The notes under the pieces are model-generated. The model worked only from the letters and a program-made list of their open reading frames with translations, did no database searches and was not told the DNA's origin. Below are positions 3,078 through 25,324 of a stretch of DNA of 32,378 bases, piece after piece. Origin of the DNA: Polyangiaceae bacterium (GTDB lineage: Bacteria > Myxococcota_A > Polyangia > Polyangiales > Houyiibacteriaceae). The stretch's first letter is position 1, and every line of letters begins with the position of its first letter. The translations under genes and the position numbers were made by a program. Where the stretch lies: NCBI GenBank assembly GCA_027009115.1, contig JALVDI010000281.1, forward strand, positions 1 to 32,378. The letters run 5' to 3'.

Positions 3078-3139
3078 GTGGGTAGGTGTTTCGCGATAAC
3101 AGACCGCAGCCGCGAGAGGCAGCGAGGAAAGGAGGGGTG

Positions 3140-3958
3140 ATGCAGCCCGAAGGTCAGGGGGGACACCCACCGCAGGGGATGCCCCAGCAGCAGTTTCAGC
3201 AGCAGCCGGCGCCAGCGCAGGCGCCGATGCAACCCGCGGCGCCCGCCGCGCAGGCTGCGCCGTTGCGGCACGAGATCACACACGGGCCATCCTTCGCCAT
3301 GTTGCGCTGCGATCTTGCACCTGGGCAGTCGGTGGTGGCCGAAGCCGGGGCGATGGTCGCGCGGCACAGCGGTGTGGCGATGGAGGTGAAGATGAACGCC
3401 AACCCCTCGGCGGGGATTTGGGCGACCATCAAGGCCTTCTTCATCGCTTTCGTCCGCAAGCTCGTGGGCGGGGAGACCTTCTTCGTCAACCACTTCACGG
3501 CTCCCCAGGGAGGCAGCGTCTGGATCGCGCCGACCCTCGCCGGGCAGATCAGCCACCGGCGCATGCAGGGCGAAACGATCACCCTCTCGACCGGTGCCTA
3601 CCTCGCCAGCAACGGCAACCTGGAAATCAAGCTCAAATTCGGCGGGCTCAAGTCCCTGTTGGCCAAGGAGGGGGCGTTCTTTCTTCAGATCTCCGGCCAC
3701 GGCGACCTCTGGTTCACCAGCTACGGAGGCATTCACGCCGTCGACATCAACGGCCCGTTCATGGTCGACAACGGTCACCTCGTCGGCTTCGAGGGGAACC
3801 TCAACTTCAACATCCGCAGCGTCGGCGGCGGCATGATGGGCCTCGTCGCGTCCGGCGAGGGACTCGTCTGCGAGTTCAACGGCCAGGGCCGCGTGTATCT
3901 GCAATCTCGAAACCTGGGCGCGCTGGTGGGGTGGCTCACGCCGCTCCTGCCTCGCTGA
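3140..3958 (+). CDS. AIM24/TIGR00266-family protein with Q/P/A-rich N-terminus (paralog 1)
   Basis: ORF 3086..3958. ATG at 3140 is preceded by AGGAGG, giving MQPEGQGGHPPQGMPQQQ... Core similar to the next two ORFs (VVAEAGAMVA, GGETFFVNHF, SGEGLVCEFNGQGRVYLQSRN). Confidence 0.85.
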   Translation: MQPEGQGGHPPQGMPQQQFQQQPAPAQAPMQPAAPAAQAAPLRHEITHGPSFAMLRCDLAPGQSVVAEAGAMVARHSGVAMEVKMNANPSAGIWATIKAFFIAFVRKLVGGETFFVNHFTAPQGGSVWIAPTLAGQISHRRMQGETITLSTGAYLASNGNLEIKLKFGGLKSLLAKEGAFFLQISGHGDLWFTSYGGIHAVDINGPFMVDNGHLVGFEGNLNFNIRSVGGGMMGLVASGEGLVCEFNGQGRVYLQSRNLGALVGWLTPLLPR

Positions 3959-3973
3959 GGGAGGCTGTTCGCG

Positions 3974-4651
3974 ATGGATATTCAGATCGGTTACCGACCC
4001 GCGCAGGCGATGGCCCGCGTGGTCCTTCAGAACGGCGAGCAGATCCGCGCCGAGAGCGGCGCCATGGTTGGAATGAGCACGAACGTGCACATCGACACCA
4101 GCGCCGCCGGCGGGATCATGAAGGGGCTCAAGCGCATGTTCGGCGGCGAGAGCTTCTTCCAGAACACCTTCACCGCGCAGGGCGGACCGGGCGAGGTGCT
4201 TCTGGCCCACTCCCTGTGTGGCGACATCGTCCCCCTCGACATGACGCCCCAGGGCTTCTTCATTCAGTCGTCGAGTTACATCGCGTCGAGCCCCTGGGTG
4301 CAGATCGACACGAAGCTCGGCGGCTTCAAGAGCTTCTTTGCCGGTGAGGGCGTCTTCGTGCTCAAGGCGACAGCGCAGCAAGAAGGGAAGGTGCTCGTCG
4401 GCGCCTTCGGAGGCATCCAGGAGCTCCAGTGCGACGGGAGCCTGGTCATCGACACGGGGCATCTCGTCGCCTGGGACGCCACCCTTCAGTACAACGTCGG
4501 CAAGAGCGGCAGCGGCTGGATCGCGTCCTTCCTCAGCGGTGAGGGGCTCGTCTGTCACTTTCAGGGGCAGGGACGCATCTGGATCCAGACGCGCAATCCC
4601 CAAGAATACGGCGGCCTCGTGGGGCGGATGCTCCCGCCGCGGGAGCAGTGA
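3974..4651 (+). CDS. AIM24/TIGR00266-family protein (paralog 2)
   Basis: 225 aa; IRAESGAMVGMS, GGESFFQNTFTAQG, SGEGLVCHFQGQGRIWIQTRN. Confidence 0.88.
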   Translation: MDIQIGYRPAQAMARVVLQNGEQIRAESGAMVGMSTNVHIDTSAAGGIMKGLKRMFGGESFFQNTFTAQGGPGEVLLAHSLCGDIVPLDMTPQGFFIQSSSYIASSPWVQIDTKLGGFKSFFAGEGVFVLKATAQQEGKVLVGAFGGIQELQCDGSLVIDTGHLVAWDATLQYNVGKSGSGWIASFLSGEGLVCHFQGQGRIWIQTRNPQEYGGLVGRMLPPREQ

Positions 4652-4654
4652 GTC

Positions 4655-5341
4655 ATGCGCTACGAACTCAAAGACAAACCCGACTTCGGCATGGTTCAGG
4701 TCCTCTTCGACCAGCCGGGTGAGCAGCTCCTGGTCGAGTCCGCCGCGATGGTCGCCAAGGACAGCGCCATCGACATGAAGACCCAGATGCAGGGGGGGCT
4801 GATGCAGGCCGCCAAGCGCAAGATGCTCGGCGGCGAGAGCCTGTTCCAGAACACCTTCACGGCGACCGCCCCAGGGCAGCAGCTATGGATCGCCCCGAGC
4901 GCCGAAGGCGACGTGCAGGCCCTCGAGCTCGATGGGACCTACGAGGTGATGCTCAACAGCGGCGCTTTCTTGGCGAGCGCGCCCTCGGTGGCCCTCGACA
5001 CCAAGTGGGGCGGGGCCAAGGGCTTCTTCAGCGGGACGGGTTTCTTCCTGCTCAAGTGCGCCGGCCATGGGCCGCTGTTCTTCTCGAGCTATGGCGGCAT
5101 CCACGCCGTCGACGTCGGGCCGGCGGGGTATATCTGCGACACCTCGCATGTGGTTGGCTTTACGAGCGGCTTGAACTACCAGGTGACCAAGGTCGGCGGG
5201 CTCAAGTCGCTCTTCCTCAGCGGTGAAGGGCTCGTCTGCAACTTCCAGGGACAGGGTCGCCTGTGGATGTCCACCCGCAACGCCAACGCGCTTGCCGCCT
5301 TCCTCCACCCCTTTCGGCGCGTCAAGAGCCGCAACAACTGA
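4655..5341 (+). CDS. AIM24/TIGR00266-family protein (paralog 3)
   Basis: 228 aa; LLVESAAMVAKD, GGESLFQNTFTA, SGEGLVCNFQGQGRLWMSTRN. Confidence 0.88.
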   Translation: MRYELKDKPDFGMVQVLFDQPGEQLLVESAAMVAKDSAIDMKTQMQGGLMQAAKRKMLGGESLFQNTFTATAPGQQLWIAPSAEGDVQALELDGTYEVMLNSGAFLASAPSVALDTKWGGAKGFFSGTGFFLLKCAGHGPLFFSSYGGIHAVDVGPAGYICDTSHVVGFTSGLNYQVTKVGGLKSLFLSGEGLVCNFQGQGRLWMSTRNANALAAFLHPFRRVKSRNN

Positions 5342-17112: not shown

Positions 17113-17128
17113 TGGCACCCTATGTGCT
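17113..17128 (+). promoter_or_regulatory. Sigma54 (-24/-12) promoter
   Basis: TGGCACCCTATGTGCT against consensus TGGCACGnnnnTTGCW; the GG and GC doublets are present at correct spacing, upstream of ATG 17182. Confidence 0.8.
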
Positions 17129-17181
17129 CTTCGGTCCGCCAACTTCAACGAGCACCGAACCGAAACCTGCTGGAGAATCCG

Positions 17182-17943
17182 ATGAACCGCTCGATCCTTG
17201 TCTTCGCCCTCGCCCTCGTCGCCCTCGCTGGTTGTGCCTTCGAGTCCGGCAGCGAGTCCGCCGCGAGCGCCGCCGCCGTGACCGGTCGGCCCTACTTCGA
17301 CCTCTTCGAGGGAAGCGACGGCGACTGGTACTTCAACCTCAAGGCTGCCAACCACGAGACCATCCTCCGCTCCGCGAGCGGCTACGCCACACGGACCGGG
17401 GCGCTGAACGCCATCCTCAGCGTGCTGGACAACGGCGAGCGGGAGGAGCGCTTCGAGCAACGTACCGCCGCCAACGGCGAGTACTACTTCGTCCTCGACG
17501 CCCGCAACGGCCGCACCATCGCGGTGAGCGAGACCTACATCAGCTACGCGAACGCGCACCGCGGCATGCTCGCGGTCATTCGCAATGTGGGCGCGTACCT
17601 CGACTTCATGGCGTCCCGCACCGGCGCGCGCTTTCAGGTCTTCCAGGGTGCTGACGACCGCTTCTACTTCAGCCTTTACGCTGGGAACGGCGAGATCGTC
17701 CTGCAGTCGCAGGGCTACGTGGACGAAGCCTCGGCGCTGAATGGGACCTTCTCGGTGGCGGCCAACGGCGTCCACGCCGAGCGCTTCGAGCTGAACGAGG
17801 CAGCCAGCGGCGGCTATTACTTCAACCTGCGCGCCTCGAACGGCCGGGTCATCGGCACCAGCGAGGTCTACACGACGCGGGCGTCGGCCGAGCGCGGCAT
17901 CGAGGCCGTCATGGCCCTCTTGCCCGAGGTCGAGCTGCTCTGA
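17182..17943 (+). CDS. Lipoprotein with about four DUF1508 (YegP-like) repeats
   Basis: MNRSILVFALALVALAGCAFESG lipobox; repeats YFDLFEGSDGDWYFNLKAANHETILRSASGY / YYFVLDARNGRTIAVSETY / FQVFQGADDRFYFSLYAGNGEIVLQSQGY / YYFNLRASNGRVIGTSEVY. Confidence 0.85.
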   Translation: MNRSILVFALALVALAGCAFESGSESAASAAAVTGRPYFDLFEGSDGDWYFNLKAANHETILRSASGYATRTGALNAILSVLDNGEREERFEQRTAANGEYYFVLDARNGRTIAVSETYISYANAHRGMLAVIRNVGAYLDFMASRTGARFQVFQGADDRFYFSLYAGNGEIVLQSQGYVDEASALNGTFSVAANGVHAERFELNEAASGGYYFNLRASNGRVIGTSEVYTTRASAERGIEAVMALLPEVELL

Positions 17944-17977: not shown

Positions 17978-18010
17978 GCGGCGGCGGGTTGATCCCGTCG
18001 CCGCATTTTC
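17978..18010 (+). terminator. Rho-independent terminator
   Basis: GCGGCGGCGGG-TTGAT-CCCGTCGCCGC (11-bp stem with one G-U pair), then ATTTTCTTCC. Confidence 0.8.
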
Positions 18011-18070: not shown

Positions 18071-19585
18071 GTGCTCGAGCGCGTCGCGCTGCATCAGACC
18101 CGTTTCCGGACCCCAGGCGTCACGCCCGACGCCCGCGGTGTCCTGCTCGGCCAGCGCGGACTCGTGCTCTTTCCCAGCCTCGACCGCCTCGTGGCCTTCC
18201 TTCGCGCCTACAGCGAGGAGAGCTCGCTGGACGAGCTGCTGCCCAGTCTGGTCCTCCGGCGGGTCGTCACTCCCCTCAAGACGCGGGAGCTGATGGTCGC
18301 CTTCGCCGCCGAGTCGTCCTACCGGATGGACCGGATCGCCGCTGCAGCGAAGCTGACCGGCGGCTTCGTCTTCACCGGCACCTCGAGACACTTCGTCAAG
18401 TACCGCGACGGCCTCTCGCCTCTGGGCTACGACGTCCAGGAGCTCGTCGAGGACCCCGCGGATCTCGTGCTCTACCACGACGGTTTCCGGCAGACGTACC
18501 GCTTCGAAGGCGAGATTGCGCTGCGCGACCTCGTGTTCAAGTTGACGCCTGAGCGGGTGCCGGCGGGGCTGCGCGCCGAGTCCACCGAGCTCCTCTGGGT
18601 GACGAGCGAGGTCGGGATCGGAGGCGCGATCCTCGGCTATCTCTTCCGGTGGCAGGTCCCGGCACGTGCGGCGCTCGTCGAGTGGCCCGCGACGAGTGCC
18701 TTCGACGACCGGCCGCGGCGGCTGTACCTCTTCGAGATCCGTGAGGCACCGGAGCGGGTGGTGTCCCTCCTCGCCTCGCTTCCAGGGGTGCATGTCTACG
18801 AGCCGCTCGGCAAGACCTTCGCCGTCGAGCTCGGCTACCGGCATCCCATCGCCCTCGACTCGTGCCGCTCGCTCTTTGGTGACGGCGGGCTGTATCTCTT
18901 CGGGGGGGATGGTTCGCCGCTCGTGATCCGGCCGCTCCCGCCGATGGCGCCGATCCGTTCGCTCGTGCGCAGCGCGATCGCTCTGGACGACGAGCCGGTG
19001 GAAGCCGCCGTGGGTTCGGGGTCGGAGCGCTCCCTGGAGCTCGCGCTCCCGCTGCGCTTGGCCCCGACCGTCGCACCATGGAAGGCGGTGACCGCGACGG
19101 TCGTACCGGCCCGGCAGCGGGCCTGGCTCGAGCGGCTGCTCTACGCGCTCCCTCCGCATACTCTCGCGGCGCTTCGCCTCGCGGTCGGCTCGGACCGCTA
19201 CTACCTCGTCGATCCGCGGGGCATCGAGGGCGTCCCCTTGGGGACCTTCCACACGGAGGTTGCACCACGGATCTATGTGCCGGCGGGCTCGACGCTCGTC
19301 CCCGCCGTCCGCCCCGCCGTCCTCGAGGAGCTGGTCGGTGGCAGGGGCGATGGTTTTGTTTTCTTCGACGCCGCGGAACCTCGGCCGCGCCTCGTGCCCG
19401 CGGTCGCCTTTGGTCCCGTGTCGCGCCGCGCCCTGCGCGCCGTCGACGCCGCGCCGGTCGTCGCCGATCCGCTCCCGAGCGAGGAGCCCGAGCTGCCGTT
19501 GCTGCGCTACGATCGTCCACGCCGCTTCCCGCTCTGGGGCATCCCCGGAAAAGAGGCGCGCTCGGATGAGTCCGAGGAGACCTGA
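18071..19585 (+). CDS. Uncharacterised protein, first gene of MoxR-vWA cluster
   Basis: 504 aa, GTG start, no family recognised by eye; next gene starts at the adjacent nucleotide. Confidence 0.75.
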   Translation: MLERVALHQTRFRTPGVTPDARGVLLGQRGLVLFPSLDRLVAFLRAYSEESSLDELLPSLVLRRVVTPLKTRELMVAFAAESSYRMDRIAAAAKLTGGFVFTGTSRHFVKYRDGLSPLGYDVQELVEDPADLVLYHDGFRQTYRFEGEIALRDLVFKLTPERVPAGLRAESTELLWVTSEVGIGGAILGYLFRWQVPARAALVEWPATSAFDDRPRRLYLFEIREAPERVVSLLASLPGVHVYEPLGKTFAVELGYRHPIALDSCRSLFGDGGLYLFGGDGSPLVIRPLPPMAPIRSLVRSAIALDDEPVEAAVGSGSERSLELALPLRLAPTVAPWKAVTATVVPARQRAWLERLLYALPPHTLAALRLAVGSDRYYLVDPRGIEGVPLGTFHTEVAPRIYVPAGSTLVPAVRPAVLEELVGGRGDGFVFFDAAEPRPRLVPAVAFGPVSRRALRAVDAAPVVADPLPSEEPELPLLRYDRPRRFPLWGIPGKEARSDESEET

Positions 19586-20740
19586 GTGGCCGAGGACCTC
19601 GGCAAGATCGGGCGGCTCTTCGAGAGCTTCGCCAGTGCTTTCCTGCGACCGCTGTTGGTCGGGGGAGAGGCCCGGACCACCCGGGCCCTGCCGCCCGGCT
19701 TGCTCGACCCCTTCGCGCAGGCGTCGTCCAGCGACCCGGAGGTGGCTGAGGCTCTGAGCGACGGGGTCCTGTCCGCGGCCGCAGAGATTGCGCCGATCGG
19801 CACGGTCCCCTCGCCGGACCGGGGGGCGATGGCGCTGGTGATGGCGGCGCACGACCTCGCCCTCGTCACCGACCCGATGCTCGACCGGGTCGTGGCGCGC
19901 CGAGCGCGGCCGAAGGTGGTCGAGTGGGCGGCGACGCTCGCCGAGGCCATCGGTCCTCCGCGGACTCGCGGGGAGGCCCTCCACCGTCATGTCTGGTTCG
20001 ACCGCTTCCTCGCCCTGGAGCGAGAGGACACGGTCGTGCGCAACTGGGCTTATACCTACCGCTTCTACGGACGGCCCCCGCCGGCGAACGTCGTGGCGCT
20101 GCCGAGGCTTCGCTTCGTGCGCCAAGAGCACAACCGGGTCGGGCTCCTCGAGCTCATCGACGCGGACGAGGACGGTCTCGGGCTTCGCTCCCTTCTCGAC
20201 GGGCTGCTCGCTCGCTCGCCGGTGACGCAGCTGCTGCGCTGGCGTCGGCTCCGCCGCCCGCGGCTGGGGGCGGCGGCCCTCGCGTGCCTCTCCGACGCCC
20301 GTCTGCGGGCCGGCGTCGCCCACCAGCTCGTCCGCGCCGGCACCGAGGGGATCGAGGCGGCCTTTGGCTTCGCGCTTCGTGAGCTCCACGCTCAAGGCGC
20401 GCCGCCCTCCCACCTCCGGGTGGCGCTCTCGTTCGTCGCCGAGCTGCAGCTCCTGGAGCTCGTCGATCCACGGACCGAGCCTGCCCCACCGGAGCCCCTC
20501 GAGAGCGACGACGCGCGGCTCTACGCGGCGGTGCTCCCCGCGCTCGTGTCCGTCGATCCGGCGGCGGCCCTGAACACCCTCGCGCCGTCGGACCGAGCTC
20601 GGGCGCTCGAGCGTGCCACGGCGCTACGGGCCGTGTCCGGCGACGCCTCGCTCGATTTTGTCCGCTCCCTGCTGGATCGGTCCTTGCCCCTCTCGCTATC
20701 CTCCCCCGCCGTCTCGCACCCTCCGAGCCACCCCGTCTGA
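19586..20740 (+). CDS. Uncharacterised protein, second gene of MoxR-vWA cluster
   Basis: 384 aa, GTG start directly after the upstream TGA; alpha-helical composition; no family recognised. Confidence 0.75.
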   Translation: MAEDLGKIGRLFESFASAFLRPLLVGGEARTTRALPPGLLDPFAQASSSDPEVAEALSDGVLSAAAEIAPIGTVPSPDRGAMALVMAAHDLALVTDPMLDRVVARRARPKVVEWAATLAEAIGPPRTRGEALHRHVWFDRFLALEREDTVVRNWAYTYRFYGRPPPANVVALPRLRFVRQEHNRVGLLELIDADEDGLGLRSLLDGLLARSPVTQLLRWRRLRRPRLGAAALACLSDARLRAGVAHQLVRAGTEGIEAAFGFALRELHAQGAPPSHLRVALSFVAELQLLELVDPRTEPAPPEPLESDDARLYAAVLPALVSVDPAAALNTLAPSDRARALERATALRAVSGDASLDFVRSLLDRSLPLSLSSPAVSHPPSHPV

Positions 20741-20747
20741 AGACCAC

Positions 20748-21920
20748 GTGCCCGCCAACCTCACGATCGCTCGCAAGCTCCAGCAGGTCGCTCGAACGCT
20801 GGAGGGGACCTTCCTCGGCAAAGCCGAGACCGTGCGGCTCATGCTCATCGCCGCCCTCGCCGGCGAGCACATGGTGCTGGTCGGGCCTCCCGGCACCGCG
20901 AAGTCCGCGCTCGTCCGGATGCTGTCAAAGCTCATCGAGGCTTCCTACTTCGAGTATCTGCTGACCCGATTCACCGAGCCCAACGAGATTTTCGGGCCCA
21001 TCGACATCGCGGCCTTTCGCAGCGGCGAGTACAAGCGGCGCACCGCGGGCATGCTCCCCGAAGCCGAAATCGTCTTCCTCGACGAGGTCTTCAAGGCCAA
21101 CTCGGCGATCCTCAATTCGCTCCTGAGCGTCCTCAACGAGCGCATCTACACTGTCGGGGGCACGGTCGTGCGCGTGCCCCTCATCAGCGCCTTTGGCGCG
21201 AGCAACGAGGTCCCCAACGACGAAGACCTGATGGCGGTCTTCGACCGCTTCCTGCTGCGGGTGCGCAGCGACAACCTCGACAGCTACCATTTCCACGAGC
21301 TCTTGCTTCGCGGCCTTCAGCACGAGGTCGACAAGATCACCGGTCGTTACGACCAGCAGCCGCCGCTGCTCACCAGCCAGGAGCTACACGCCGTCCACGC
21401 GGACTTTGCTTCGCGCATGCGTTTCAGCGACGAGTTCTTGGCGGCCTACAAGGGCCTCGTGTTCCAGATCCGCGCCGAAGGCGTCAGCCTGTCGGACCGC
21501 CGTGCGATCAAGATGCTCAAGCTCTTTGCCGCCAGCGCGCTGCTCGATGGGCGACCGCAGGCGAACCCGAGCGACTTCTTCGTCCTCCGGCACATCTGGA
21601 ACAACCTCGACCAGGCCGAGATCCTCGACGGGATCGTCGCCCCCGTGCTCGAGGCGTGGTACCGCGACAACCCGGAGACACGGCGTTTCGGTGCGACGGA
21701 GGTGGGGCTCGACGCCCTCATCGAGGAGATCAACCGCATCCGTGATCTTCTGACGAGCGACCGGTCGATGAGCGACATCCAGCTCTTCAGCCACCTGAAG
21801 GCGCTCGGCGAGATCAAAGCGGCCCTCGAGGCGATCGGCACGCCCCCGGCGCGGGAGGCCGTCGGTCGCGTCGAACAGCTCCTCGGTCACGTGTTCCAGA
21901 GCGGCAAGTTCGCGCCGTAG
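20748..21920 (+). CDS. MoxR-family AAA+ ATPase, RavA-like
   Basis: GTG 20748 in frame of ORF 20613..21920; MVLVGPPGTAKSALVRML Walker A, FEYLLTRFTEPNEIFGPIDI, LPEAEIVFLDEVFKANSAILNSLLSVLNER Walker B, GASNEVPNDEDLMAVFDRFLLR. Confidence 0.93.
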   Translation: MPANLTIARKLQQVARTLEGTFLGKAETVRLMLIAALAGEHMVLVGPPGTAKSALVRMLSKLIEASYFEYLLTRFTEPNEIFGPIDIAAFRSGEYKRRTAGMLPEAEIVFLDEVFKANSAILNSLLSVLNERIYTVGGTVVRVPLISAFGASNEVPNDEDLMAVFDRFLLRVRSDNLDSYHFHELLLRGLQHEVDKITGRYDQQPPLLTSQELHAVHADFASRMRFSDEFLAAYKGLVFQIRAEGVSLSDRRAIKMLKLFAASALLDGRPQANPSDFFVLRHIWNNLDQAEILDGIVAPVLEAWYRDNPETRRFGATEVGLDALIEEINRIRDLLTSDRSMSDIQLFSHLKALGEIKAALEAIGTPPAREAVGRVEQLLGHVFQSGKFAP

Positions 21921-21952
21921 TCGCCGGCGAGCGCCAGAGGGCTGCGTCGCGC

Positions 21953-21958
21953 TATACC
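21953..21958 (+). promoter_or_regulatory. Candidate -10 hexamer (TATACC) for leaderless internal transcript at 21965
   Basis: The last base is 7 nt before GTG 21965. Confidence 0.35.
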
Positions 21959-21964
21959 CTGGGG

Positions 21965-23482
21965 GTGCCCCTCGCCGCTCGCCTTCATGGGACCGCCACG
22001 GGCCGAGAGATCGGCTCGCTCGCCCTGAGCGTCGTGCGCGCCGACAACCCCATGGTTGCCGTGCGTGCCGCGCACTGGCGCAACTCCCTGCTGCGGGTCG
22101 GGCTGCCGGTGCCCCTTTGGGCGGTCCACGATCTCGGCCTCCTTGCCGCCGTCGATGCCGAGTGCGGTCCGCCGGGGCCGCGTCCCGTCGGCCTGTCGTT
22201 GCCGGAGCCGGCGGCCGCCGCTCTCGAAACCTACGCCCAAACCCTCTCGGAGCTGGCGCACAGCGAGGTGCTGGAGAAGGCCCGCCGCTGGCGCCTCGGC
22301 GACGAGCTCGTCGCCGTGCTGCTGCTCAAAGTCCTCGGGCCCCTTTATGAGCGCTACCGCGGGGCTCGCCTCGGTGGTATCGACACGGCGGCGCTTCCTC
22401 TGGATCCGGAGGTCTACCGGGACGTCGAACCGCAGCTTGCGGAGCTCTTCACAGCTCACGACCGCACCGACGATCTTGGGTTCCTGCAGCACCTCGCACG
22501 GGAGCGGCTGCGCCTGATCACGGCGGTCGAGCAGATCGATCTCGACACGCTGCGTCTGCTGGGCATGTTCGGCGCCGAGGCGACGGCTGCTGGAGCGATG
22601 CAGATGCTCGATCTGCTCCACGTCTTCGAGTCGCCGGAAGCGAACGACGTCGTCAATTTCTCGCTCGACCTCCTGCCGAGCATCCTCGAGACGAAGAGGG
22701 CCAGCGGCCAGCAGGTGTTCTCCGTCGACGGGTACGCGGGGGTCGAGCGGCGCGGCACCCTCGACTCGCTCGTCCTCAGCGAGCTCGCGTTCGACGATGA
22801 GCTCTTTGACCGGCGCTTCGTCGAAAAGGAGGTCTTCTACTACGCCCGCGAGAAGCAGCAGGAAGAAGACCGTCGCCTTCACTACATCCTCGTCGATGCC
22901 TCGGCCTCGATGCGGGGGCAGCGATCCGTCTTTGCCCGTGGCCTCGCCCTGACGCTGATCAAGAAGCTCCAGCTCCGCGGTGAGGACGTCTACTTTCGGT
23001 TCTTCGATTCCCGCCTCTACGAGCTGCAGCACGCCCGCCATGGGCGCAGCGGCGGTGGCGCCATCAGCGTGCCCTACGTGCTGTCGTTCAAGGGCGAGCG
23101 CGGCCGCAACTACGCCAAGGTCTTTGGGATGCTCGTGGGGGAGCTCCAACGGCTCCAGCGCCGCGAGCGTCGCTCGCCGATCGTCTACATCCTCACCCAC
23201 GCGCAGTGCCACGTGCCTCTCGAGACGGTGGAGCGTCTGCGAAGCATTGCCCGGCTCTATGGGGTCTTCATGTTGCCGAGCACCGGAGAGCTCGACCTGG
23301 ACTATCTCCACCGATTGCACACGGTGCAGGTCGTCGACAGCGCCTCCCTGGCGGTCCGTGACACGCGCGCGGCCCGCGCGCTGGAGATCGTCGACGATGC
23401 CGCCGACGCCGGAAGCGGCAAACCCGATCCGTCGCCAAGCCGTCCCAGCGTGCCGTCGCCGCCCCCGGGCGAACGCCTCTGA
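21965..23482 (+). CDS. vWA-domain protein (MIDAS) partnered with MoxR ATPase
   Basis: 505 aa; HYILVDASASMRGQRSVFARGLALTLIKKLQLRGEDVYFRFFDSRLY contains the DxSxS MIDAS motif. Confidence 0.9.
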   Translation: MPLAARLHGTATGREIGSLALSVVRADNPMVAVRAAHWRNSLLRVGLPVPLWAVHDLGLLAAVDAECGPPGPRPVGLSLPEPAAAALETYAQTLSELAHSEVLEKARRWRLGDELVAVLLLKVLGPLYERYRGARLGGIDTAALPLDPEVYRDVEPQLAELFTAHDRTDDLGFLQHLARERLRLITAVEQIDLDTLRLLGMFGAEATAAGAMQMLDLLHVFESPEANDVVNFSLDLLPSILETKRASGQQVFSVDGYAGVERRGTLDSLVLSELAFDDELFDRRFVEKEVFYYAREKQQEEDRRLHYILVDASASMRGQRSVFARGLALTLIKKLQLRGEDVYFRFFDSRLYELQHARHGRSGGGAISVPYVLSFKGERGRNYAKVFGMLVGELQRLQRRERRSPIVYILTHAQCHVPLETVERLRSIARLYGVFMLPSTGELDLDYLHRLHTVQVVDSASLAVRDTRAARALEIVDDAADAGSGKPDPSPSRPSVPSPPPGERL

Positions 23483-23536
23483 GCTCCTTGGCCTTGGCGG
23501 CCGGGACGGACCCCTCGTGCTACAACGGAACGGTCC

Positions 23537-25324
23537 GTGGCGACAGTGGACGAGCAGGAGGCCATGCGCCGGGCGCGCGCCGCCCTCCAGGGAGGAACCC
23601 CTGCGCAGGCCCTTGCCGACCTCTGGTCGTTCGTCGAGCGCACCCACCTTTCCGCCGGTGAGGTCGCGGAGGCTCTGCGAGAGATGGCACGGGTCTACGA
23701 GTCCTTGGGCCGCGAGCGCGCCGTGGCGACGATCCTGCTGTTTCTCGGTGAGGCGGAGGCGGCGTATCGGGCGTCGGCGCACCCGACGGATCGGGCTCGG
23801 GCCGCCATCGCGAACGGCCGCCTCGCGGACGCCGCGCGGCACTACGTCGAGGCCGGCTGGCTTGGCCACGGCGCCATCCAGCTCGAAGACGCCGGCGACG
23901 ATCGAGGCGCGCGGGTCCTATGGGAGCGGCTCGCGGCCGACCCGCGGCTGCGGAAGGATCTCTACACCTCGGGCCTGGTGCACTTCAACTTGAGTCGCGC
24001 GTGCGAGCGCCTCGGCGATCGGGCTGCGGCGCGTGAGGCGGTCGCGCAGTCGATGCACCTGCTCGAAGGTGCGGCGGACGGCTTCGAGGCGCGAGGGCTG
24101 CGCGAGCGTGCCTTCGACTGTTACCAGATCTTGCTCACCCTCGGTCGCGACGGTGCCTTCGAGAACCTCGCCGAGGGCTATCTCAACTGCATCCGCGTGC
24201 TGAAGGAAGACAACCTCAAGTACTACGTGCTGCAGTACTTCGAGGACTTTCAAGGGTTGGCCCTCGAGCGTGGCGAGCTTCATGCCGCGGCAACCCTCTT
24301 CCGAGAGGCGGCGGAGTTTGCACGGCGCCACGCGCTGCCCTACGAAGACCACTACCGCCGTCGGGCAGGCGAGACGCTGGTCCGCGCCGCCGAGCGAGCG
24401 ATCGCCGAGGGCGCGCCCCATGAAATGGCCGAGAATGCCTACGCGGCGGCCATCGACGCCTACAACGATCTGGGTGCCTATGCCGCGGTTCGGGACGTCT
24501 ACGCTCGTCTGGCGGAGCTCGACCTGGGCGACAAACGCAAGGCTCGCTACGCGCGCTTGCACGAGCGTTTGCGGGGGGAAGAGGACGAGCCTCGGCAGCT
24601 CGTGGCGTTCCCCGACTACCTGCGCATGGATTCGGCGTATCCGGAGATCTGGCGCTTTGACGTGATCGAGTGGGAGCAAGAGGGCGACGCCGCCGAGACG
24701 ATGGGGGAGGTGCTCCTCGACCCGAAGTGGCCCGAGTTCACGCGTCGGCGGGCGCTGCTGTGCCGGCTTCATCTGCTTGGCTGTGGCGAGACGCCACTTA
24801 CCGAGCGCACGCTGGTCGCCCTCGCGCATCATCTCGGCCGCGTGGAGATCTACGCGTCTCTGGCGCCTCTCGAGCGTCTGGTCGAAGACCCCAGGCCGAA
24901 GGTGCGGGCCGCGTGCCTCCGTGCCGCCCGCCAGCTCTTCTTCAAGCGGAGCTTCGTGCTCGTCATGCGTGGCCTGCGGGACGAGGACGAGGCCGTGCGC
25001 CGGGAGGCCATCGAGGCGGTTTCGGCGCTCCACTTCGGTCACGCCTTCGACCCGTTGCAACGGATCTATCGTTCGAGCACGGACCGCCAGGTGCGCAGCA
25101 AGGCGCTCGCCTCCATCGGAAAGATTCCGTCCCTCGAAGCCGCGGAGCTGCTGATCGACGTGCTCCGTCAGGGGGATGCGGCCGAACGCGCGCTCGCGGC
25201 AGATCTCTTGGCGCGGGCCGAGCACCCCGAGGTCGATGCGCTTCTGCGGCGGTCGCTCGCCCATGAGACCGGCGCGGTGCGCGAGGCGCTCGAGCGCGTG
25301 CTCCGCCTGCGCAGTCCCGCCTGA
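23537..25324 (+). CDS. TPR-like/HEAT-repeat protein, last gene of MoxR-vWA cluster
   Basis: 595 aa; N-terminal helical TPR-like arrays, C-terminal HEAT-like repeats (DPRPKVRAACLRAARQLF / DEDEAVRREAIEAVSALHF / STDRQVRSKALASIGKI). Confidence 0.82.
   Translation: MATVDEQEAMRRARAALQGGTPAQALADLWSFVERTHLSAGEVAEALREMARVYESLGRERAVATILLFLGEAEAAYRASAHPTDRARAAIANGRLADAARHYVEAGWLGHGAIQLEDAGDDRGARVLWERLAADPRLRKDLYTSGLVHFNLSRACERLGDRAAAREAVAQSMHLLEGAADGFEARGLRERAFDCYQILLTLGRDGAFENLAEGYLNCIRVLKEDNLKYYVLQYFEDFQGLALERGELHAAATLFREAAEFARRHALPYEDHYRRRAGETLVRAAERAIAEGAPHEMAENAYAAAIDAYNDLGAYAAVRDVYARLAELDLGDKRKARYARLHERLRGEEDEPRQLVAFPDYLRMDSAYPEIWRFDVIEWEQEGDAAETMGEVLLDPKWPEFTRRRALLCRLHLLGCGETPLTERTLVALAHHLGRVEIYASLAPLERLVEDPRPKVRAACLRAARQLFFKRSFVLVMRGLRDEDEAVRREAIEAVSALHFGHAFDPLQRIYRSSTDRQVRSKALASIGKIPSLEAAELLIDVLRQGDAAERALAADLLARAEHPEVDALLRRSLAHETGAVREALERVLRLRSPA

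Follow-up and report, generated by a model that had tools for sequence, protein, structure and literature searches.

According to Kaur et al. 2020 (PMC7159879), MoxR-vWA ternary systems serve multicellular prokaryotes as conflict systems, a role that was read from domain content and genomic context. Those closest to the locus described here are the FtsH ternary systems (MoxR-vWA subsystem 3) and the beta-propeller ternary systems (subsystem 4), whose MoxR ATPases carry the P-loop variant GXXXTAKS; in some vWA domains of ternary systems, one or both Asp residues are lost (PMC7159879). MoxR ATPases are also paired with vWA partners in RavA-ViaA, NorQ-NorD and CbbQ-CbbO, and the NorQ hexamer is plugged by the vWA domain of NorD (PMC9976466).

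Here we describe five genes, named A to E in their order on the DNA, from a Polyangiaceae bacterium (assembly GCA_027009115.1, contig JALVDI010000281.1). The window, by which we mean the whole stretch of DNA analysed, comprises 32,378 nt (positions 1-32,378, forward strand), and the cluster occupies positions 18071-25324. We propose that its products are probably the five subunits of a MoxR-vWA remodelling system, which is inherited vertically, forms a distinct sister to the FtsH/beta-propeller ternary systems and serves the cell as an endogenous assembly or quality-control machine.

The five genes and their products

A preliminary description of this DNA had reported five closely spaced co-directional genes, and this holds: all five ORFs lie on the + strand at the positions listed in Table 1, the stop codon of A (19585) is followed without a gap by the GTG start of B (19586), 7 nt separate the end of B (20740) from the GTG start of C (20748), and the gaps C-D and D-E measure 44 and 54 nt. 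All five show the GC3-rich pattern of real genes and their start residues agree with those of the orthologues. For C, the mechanical ORF starts at 20613; we placed the start at 20748 (390 aa) because conservation supports it. GC content is even across the window and that of the cluster is typical of it. The strong terminator noted just upstream exists as a hairpin, but such sites are no more common near the cluster than in shuffled sequences (3 found, 3.9 expected). It begins 34 nt past the preceding gene and is most simply read as the end of that gene, which encodes a lipoprotein-like product with four DUF1508 (PF07411) repeats (17122-17943). Elsewhere in the window, at 3086-5341, three tandem paralogous ORFs form one sequence cluster; we take them to resemble AIM24-type proteins.

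Table 1. Genes and sequence features of the five-gene cluster (positions refer to the window)
Feature	Position	Strand	Basis or remark
Terminator-like hairpin	17978-18004	+	11 pairs, 10 G-C; most likely belongs to upstream DUF1508 gene
Gene A, 504 aa, alpha/beta protein, remote homologue of fvmX7/bpX2	18071-19585	+	Orthologue family matches, profile comparison, AlphaFold
A residues 173-452, part aligning with genuine fvmX7 proteins	18587-19426	+	hhalign
Gene B, 384 aa, mostly helical, no known family	19586-20740	+	Orthologue alignment, AlphaFold
Gene C, 390 aa, MoxR AAA+ ATPase, bpMoxR family	20748-21920	+	PF20030 match, orthologue clade
Walker A of C, GPPGTAKS (GXXXTAKS variant)	20883-20906	+	Orthologue motif count
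Gene D, 505 aa, predicted helical N-terminal region and divergent vWA, without beta-propeller	21965-23482	+	ivWA matches, hhalign
MIDAS motif DxSxS of D, DASASMRG, residues 311-318	22895-22918	+	Orthologue motif count
THAQCHVP in D, residues 411-418	23195-23218	+	H412 presumably where a canonical vWA would carry the second MIDAS Asp
Gene E, 595 aa, N-terminal TPR-like repeats and C-terminal HEAT repeats	23537-25324	+	Pfam, orthologue scans
HEAT_2 match in E, residues 445-525	24869-25111	+	Pfam, E=3.7e-13

The most readily classified protein is C, which matches the bpMoxR family PF20030 at E=1.8e-75 (253 bits, cut-off 27) and is an AAA+ ATPase of the bpMoxR type whose P-loop is intact: G-x-x-GTAKS is present in all 71 orthologues checked, among which [VI]FLDE occurs in 65 and FDRF in 67. 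The name "RavA-like" given to it before is imprecise. RavA is indeed its best sequence relative in the PDB (E=4e-60, covering C residues 2-295), but the family is bpMoxR, and the RavA equivalog model scores 190.8 bits where the cut-off is 681. The C orthologues form a single clade (support 0.948) apart from the FtsH- and propeller-type MoxR proteins of the same phylum.

Both A and B had been left unrecognised, which still applies to B but no longer to A. In Pfam scans, the window's own A had no match at E≤1, whereas 12 of 21 orthologues matched bpX2 (best E=4.3e-8) and six matched fvmX7 (best E=1.7e-12); the cut-off of the fvmX-type accessory domain PF20005 is exceeded by A orthologues in many genomes, the window's A lying below detection. 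A profile built from 75 A sequences aligned by hhalign to genuine fvmX7 proteins with a probability of 98.6 (E=6.8e-16), and A aligned to an X-like protein encoded near MoxR in Polyangium with a probability of 96.3 (E=1.6e-9). By sequence, A is a remote homologue of the X-type (fvmX7/bpX2) third component, and from the overlapping matches we infer that A, fvmX7 and the bpX2 region represent one homologous "X" component. The AlphaFold model of A (mean pLDDT 88.6, pTM 0.64), in which strands alternate with helices and a loop and the tail are of low confidence, suggests a protein built of repeated alpha/beta modules. A PDB fold search with this model returned nothing at E≤0.001, the PDB sequence search nothing convincingly like A, B or D, and sequence and fold searches of the PDB gave no enzyme similarity for A or B.

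The Pfam scan of the window's B likewise gave no match at E≤1, and its orthologues gave no credible family. Its AlphaFold model (mean pLDDT 94.3, pTM 0.90) consists mostly of helices, with a few strands near residues 145-186, and the fold had no match in the PDB at E≤0.001 and none among viral models. P212 is invariant among the orthologues, and R134-H135, R146, D148, G162, T214 and R241 are nearly so. Compared with the bpX, fvmX and VMAP families, which the preliminary description had named as candidates, A found relatives as above, B had no credible match, and none of the five proteins matched a VMAP or inactive STAND (iSTAND) domain. Two assignments of B were rejected. That it corresponds to the C-terminal region of a fused fvmX7 protein was ruled out by an hhalign probability of 0.2; its identification as fvmX1 was not accepted, since one of 75 members reached E=3.8e-5, yet the best value that searches with the fvmX1 family returned for any recognisable B gene was E=0.07 (in G008) and profile comparison with a genuine fvmX1 protein gave a probability of 1.2.

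The window's D falls below the Pfam cut-off for ivWA, which 20 of 33 orthologues match at E up to 0.1, and aligns with helical_N-ivWA proteins (PF19996/PF19997) with an hhalign probability of 98.0 (E=2e-13). D thus appears to resemble these proteins, with an altered metal site predicted. The first MIDAS signature, D-x-S/T-x-S-M-x-G, is present in all 46 orthologues checked; H412 is invariant across 33 aligned orthologues, most of which have THAxCHVP, and we take this residue, from the sequence pattern and general knowledge of vWA domains, to occupy the position of the second MIDAS Asp. Domain scans of D and its orthologues gave no propeller or WD40 match, as the preliminary description had already seen. 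The proline/serine-rich C-terminal tail of D is poorly conserved, and some relatives have a much shorter one.

HEAT_2 was matched by all 23 E orthologues, and TPR-type or SNAP-like domains by a few of them. E has neither a propeller nor a variable N-terminus, and its mean column identity over these orthologues is 54%. Homology of E to the C-terminus of fvmX7 or to the small TPR protein encoded near MoxR in Polyangium found no support.

Gene order and co-occurrence in relatives

About 20 other species, some of them from further families of the class, have the genes in the order A-B-C-D-E, whose conservation is therefore far beyond chance. Loss of this order among homologous loci had been named beforehand as evidence against the cluster; it is kept in the window's family, in sister families and in class-level outgroups. 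We found the co-directional arrangement in nine genomes, in six MAGs, some of which may coincide with the nine, and in six genomes from other families of the class. In two of these genomes (G040 and G148), C is separated from D by several kb of inserted DNA. The inserts among B, C and D that some relatives have include histidine kinases and other genes; these recur inconsistently, and we therefore do not count them as parts of the system.

In other genomes the genes have come apart to different degrees. Some members of the window's family have A-B-C together and D or E further off, and genomes of the Polyangiaceae type (Sorangium, Polyangium, Labilithrix and relatives) keep just A-B linked at the locus, with C and D-E elsewhere. 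Cultured carriers of the A-B locus include Sorangium cellulosum So ce26, Minicystis rosea and Polyangium fumosum. One genome (G151) has A-B on one contig, C on a second and D-E on a third, each of 2.5-3.6 Mb; in one family (f7), even A and B are apart.

We searched A in 284 genomes of the phylum and obtained 47 positives, 45 of them strong (E≤1e-72) and two weak (G066 and G098). Co-occurrence was then scored in 65 genomes, the 45 strong positives and 20 others; the genomes are not independent and the 18 A-negatives among them were not randomly sampled, so we claim no p-value. All 45 strong positives carry B, C (E≤3e-134) and E, in agreement with the TPR/HEAT protein having been named as a partner, and 44 carry D, the exception (G287) having a contig that ends inside C. 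At the thresholds used, B, D and E are missing from the remaining 20 genomes, which also lack a C orthologue; their best C match (1.5e-90, in G066) belongs to a separate propeller-type system with WD40. Because the genes co-occur even where they are unlinked, in Polyangiaceae, the pattern argues strongly for all five proteins working together. B and E belong to the set throughout as additional members, and the five are inherited and lost together.

Absences of the set are scattered over several separate genera and families and look like lineage losses. Among 58 close relatives, the median genome size is 7.6 Mb in carriers and 3.95 Mb in non-carriers, one genus dominating the latter. In a single pattern-based scan beyond Myxococcota, all named matches were Myxococcota- or Deltaproteobacteria-type records; divergent members may be spread more widely.

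Among the neighbours of the cluster and of the dispersed genes, no functionally telling gene recurs, and inspection of the dispersed loci revealed lineage synteny only, which we judged uninformative about function. In six Polyangiaceae loci, a gene that by eye looks dUTPase-like or TsaB-like directly follows C, and in several loci of this family a large predicted ATPase with TPR-like repeats, also named by eye, just precedes C.

Relationship to known MoxR-vWA systems

With the FtsH ternary systems (PMC7159879), the five-gene set shares a MoxR with the GXXXTAKS motif, and D appears to resemble their divergent vWA protein with an N-terminal helical region. The preliminary description had suggested a variant ternary system with A and B as partners, and both the family links of A, C and D and the presence of A and B with C and E in all 45 strong positives bear this out. 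In contrast to FtsH ternary systems, however, the set has no FtsH, Ubl-conjugation or effector gene (no tandem FtsH-type AAA+ component was found in the five proteins or the immediate neighbours scanned), contains B and E in addition and is inherited vertically; A is only remotely similar, and genuine FtsH-type relatives occur elsewhere in some of the same genomes. One of these, locus L242, belongs to a genome that has A-E elsewhere (G056) and encodes an X7-type protein (fvmX7, 1123 aa) directly upstream of a bpMoxR (333 aa) and a helical_N-ivWA protein (493 aa). This X-MoxR-vWA order is that of A-(B)-C-D, and the system is paralogous. In another genome (G259, locus L244), an FtsH-like AAA/M41 protein is encoded near a strong fvmX7 protein.

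The beta-propeller ternary systems (PMC7159879) share with the set a bpMoxR ATPase, bpX2, which A orthologues match, and a TPR-like protein. They differ from it in that D has no propeller, E has HEAT repeats instead of one, and a WD40 protein and a component with a variable N-terminus are missing. Published-type relatives are found in the same genomes as the five-gene set, so the two coexist and the five-gene system is distinct. It is possible that some five-gene loci are already among the examples of PMC7159879.

Several further loci were recorded in the course of these comparisons. L287:2474-11012 of Polyangium sp. y55x31 encodes an fvmX1 protein, a bpMoxR-like ATPase, a small TPR-like protein and an A-like protein; ORFs beside the fvmX1 protein look JAB- and E2-type by eye, and the locus is probably an FtsH/Ubl-type ternary system. 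The propeller-type system of G066 (L187:6806-12974) consists of bpMoxR, a TPR-like ORF, an A-like protein with a TPR end and a 766-aa WD40 protein. At L246:3583-5948 (G002), an ivWA protein adjoins a leucine-rich-repeat protein.

The set resembles RavA-ViaA in combining a MoxR ATPase with a vWA partner, but the match to RavA is limited to part of C, D matches no PDB chain, and three subunits are extra. With NorQ-NorD and CbbQ-CbbO it shares the general architecture and probably a mechanism of ring plus vWA protein (PMC9976466), whereas its subfamily is different and no cognate enzyme is encoded nearby.

Inheritance and probable function

Pairwise distances of all five proteins track those of RpoB (Mantel r 0.92 for A, 0.91 for B, 0.90 for C, 0.89 for D and 0.88 for E, with none of 1000 permutations reaching the observed r), and inheritance is therefore vertical. 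Among the five, the distances correlate at r 0.86-0.97. The system is single-copy in its genomes, and no A was found among 72,556 plasmid and 50,697 phage records. This differs from the patchy, mobile distribution typical of defence systems. Vertical inheritance and retention or loss as a set thus look like those of a stable cell function rather than of a mobile defence cassette. Relative to RpoB, divergence (as -ln identity) is 3.1-fold for A, 4.7-fold for B, 1.5-fold for C, 2.6-fold for D and 2.9-fold for E; the fast evolution of A and B (3 to 4.7 times RpoB) could reflect conflict or merely weak constraint.

These data bear directly on the conflict or stress role that the preliminary description had raised for such modules, and they do not support it. 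An anti-phage or abortive-infection system, in which D and C would keep A or B inactive as long as no invader is detected, is unlikely: although A, C and D are homologous to components of the FtsH/beta-propeller ternary systems read as conflict systems (PMC7159879) and A and B evolve faster than C, domain scans and orthologue alignments revealed neither an effector domain nor a hypervariable part among the five proteins, PADLOC models gave only weak generic ATPase matches, and the genes are strictly co-retained when dispersed. The single-copy, RpoB-like inheritance (r about 0.9), the lack of plasmid and phage matches, the dUTPase-like or TsaB-like genes beside C in Polyangiaceae and the window-typical GC content of the cluster argue in the same direction. 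An ancient, fixed immune role may nevertheless be compatible with stable vertical inheritance.

Housekeeping-like vertical inheritance would also suit a factor dedicated to the maturation of a single enzyme or respiratory complex, comparable to CbbQO, NorQD or RavA-ViaA and with A or B as client or adaptor. NorQ/NorD illustrates the general MoxR/vWA mechanism (PMC9976466), and within the PDB the sequence closest to C is that of RavA. We nevertheless regard this as quite improbable, for no enzyme, cofactor or respiratory gene recurs beside the cluster or the dispersed genes, A and B are without enzyme similarity, and C stays far below the RavA equivalog cut-off. That A-B and C-D-E are two co-located modules acting separately, as their separation in Polyangiaceae (A-B, C and D-E) and the several-kb inserts between C and D in several genomes might suggest, is most improbable, since neither was found without the other in the 65 genomes tested and a comparison of the A and B distances with those of C, D and E gives correlations of r 0.89-0.94.

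For the endogenous remodelling system that we favour, we envisage the following mechanism by analogy to NorQ/NorD and the general model of PMC7159879. C would form a hexameric ring on which D docks, and the DxSxS/His site of D could capture a peptide. C would then hydrolyse ATP and so remodel the conformation of A, or of A and B in complex, for which E may supply a TPR/HEAT platform as scaffold. Such remodelling would serve an endogenous complex in large-genome Polyangia by driving its assembly, maturation or quality control.

In a wider sense, the cluster could represent, as we tentatively suggest, a fifth MoxR-vWA class: a vertically inherited five-subunit machine of Polyangia and a few related families, with ancestry shared with presumed immune systems, a place in core physiology, an undescribed fold in B and a His in place of the second MIDAS Asp. 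The branch has the core of a ternary system, yet in genomic terms it behaves as an endogenous machine, being single-copy, vertically inherited and kept after the operon has scattered. It thereby lets one ask what the MoxR-vWA-X core does without an attached effector, with A and B as defined candidate clients of the MoxR-vWA engine.
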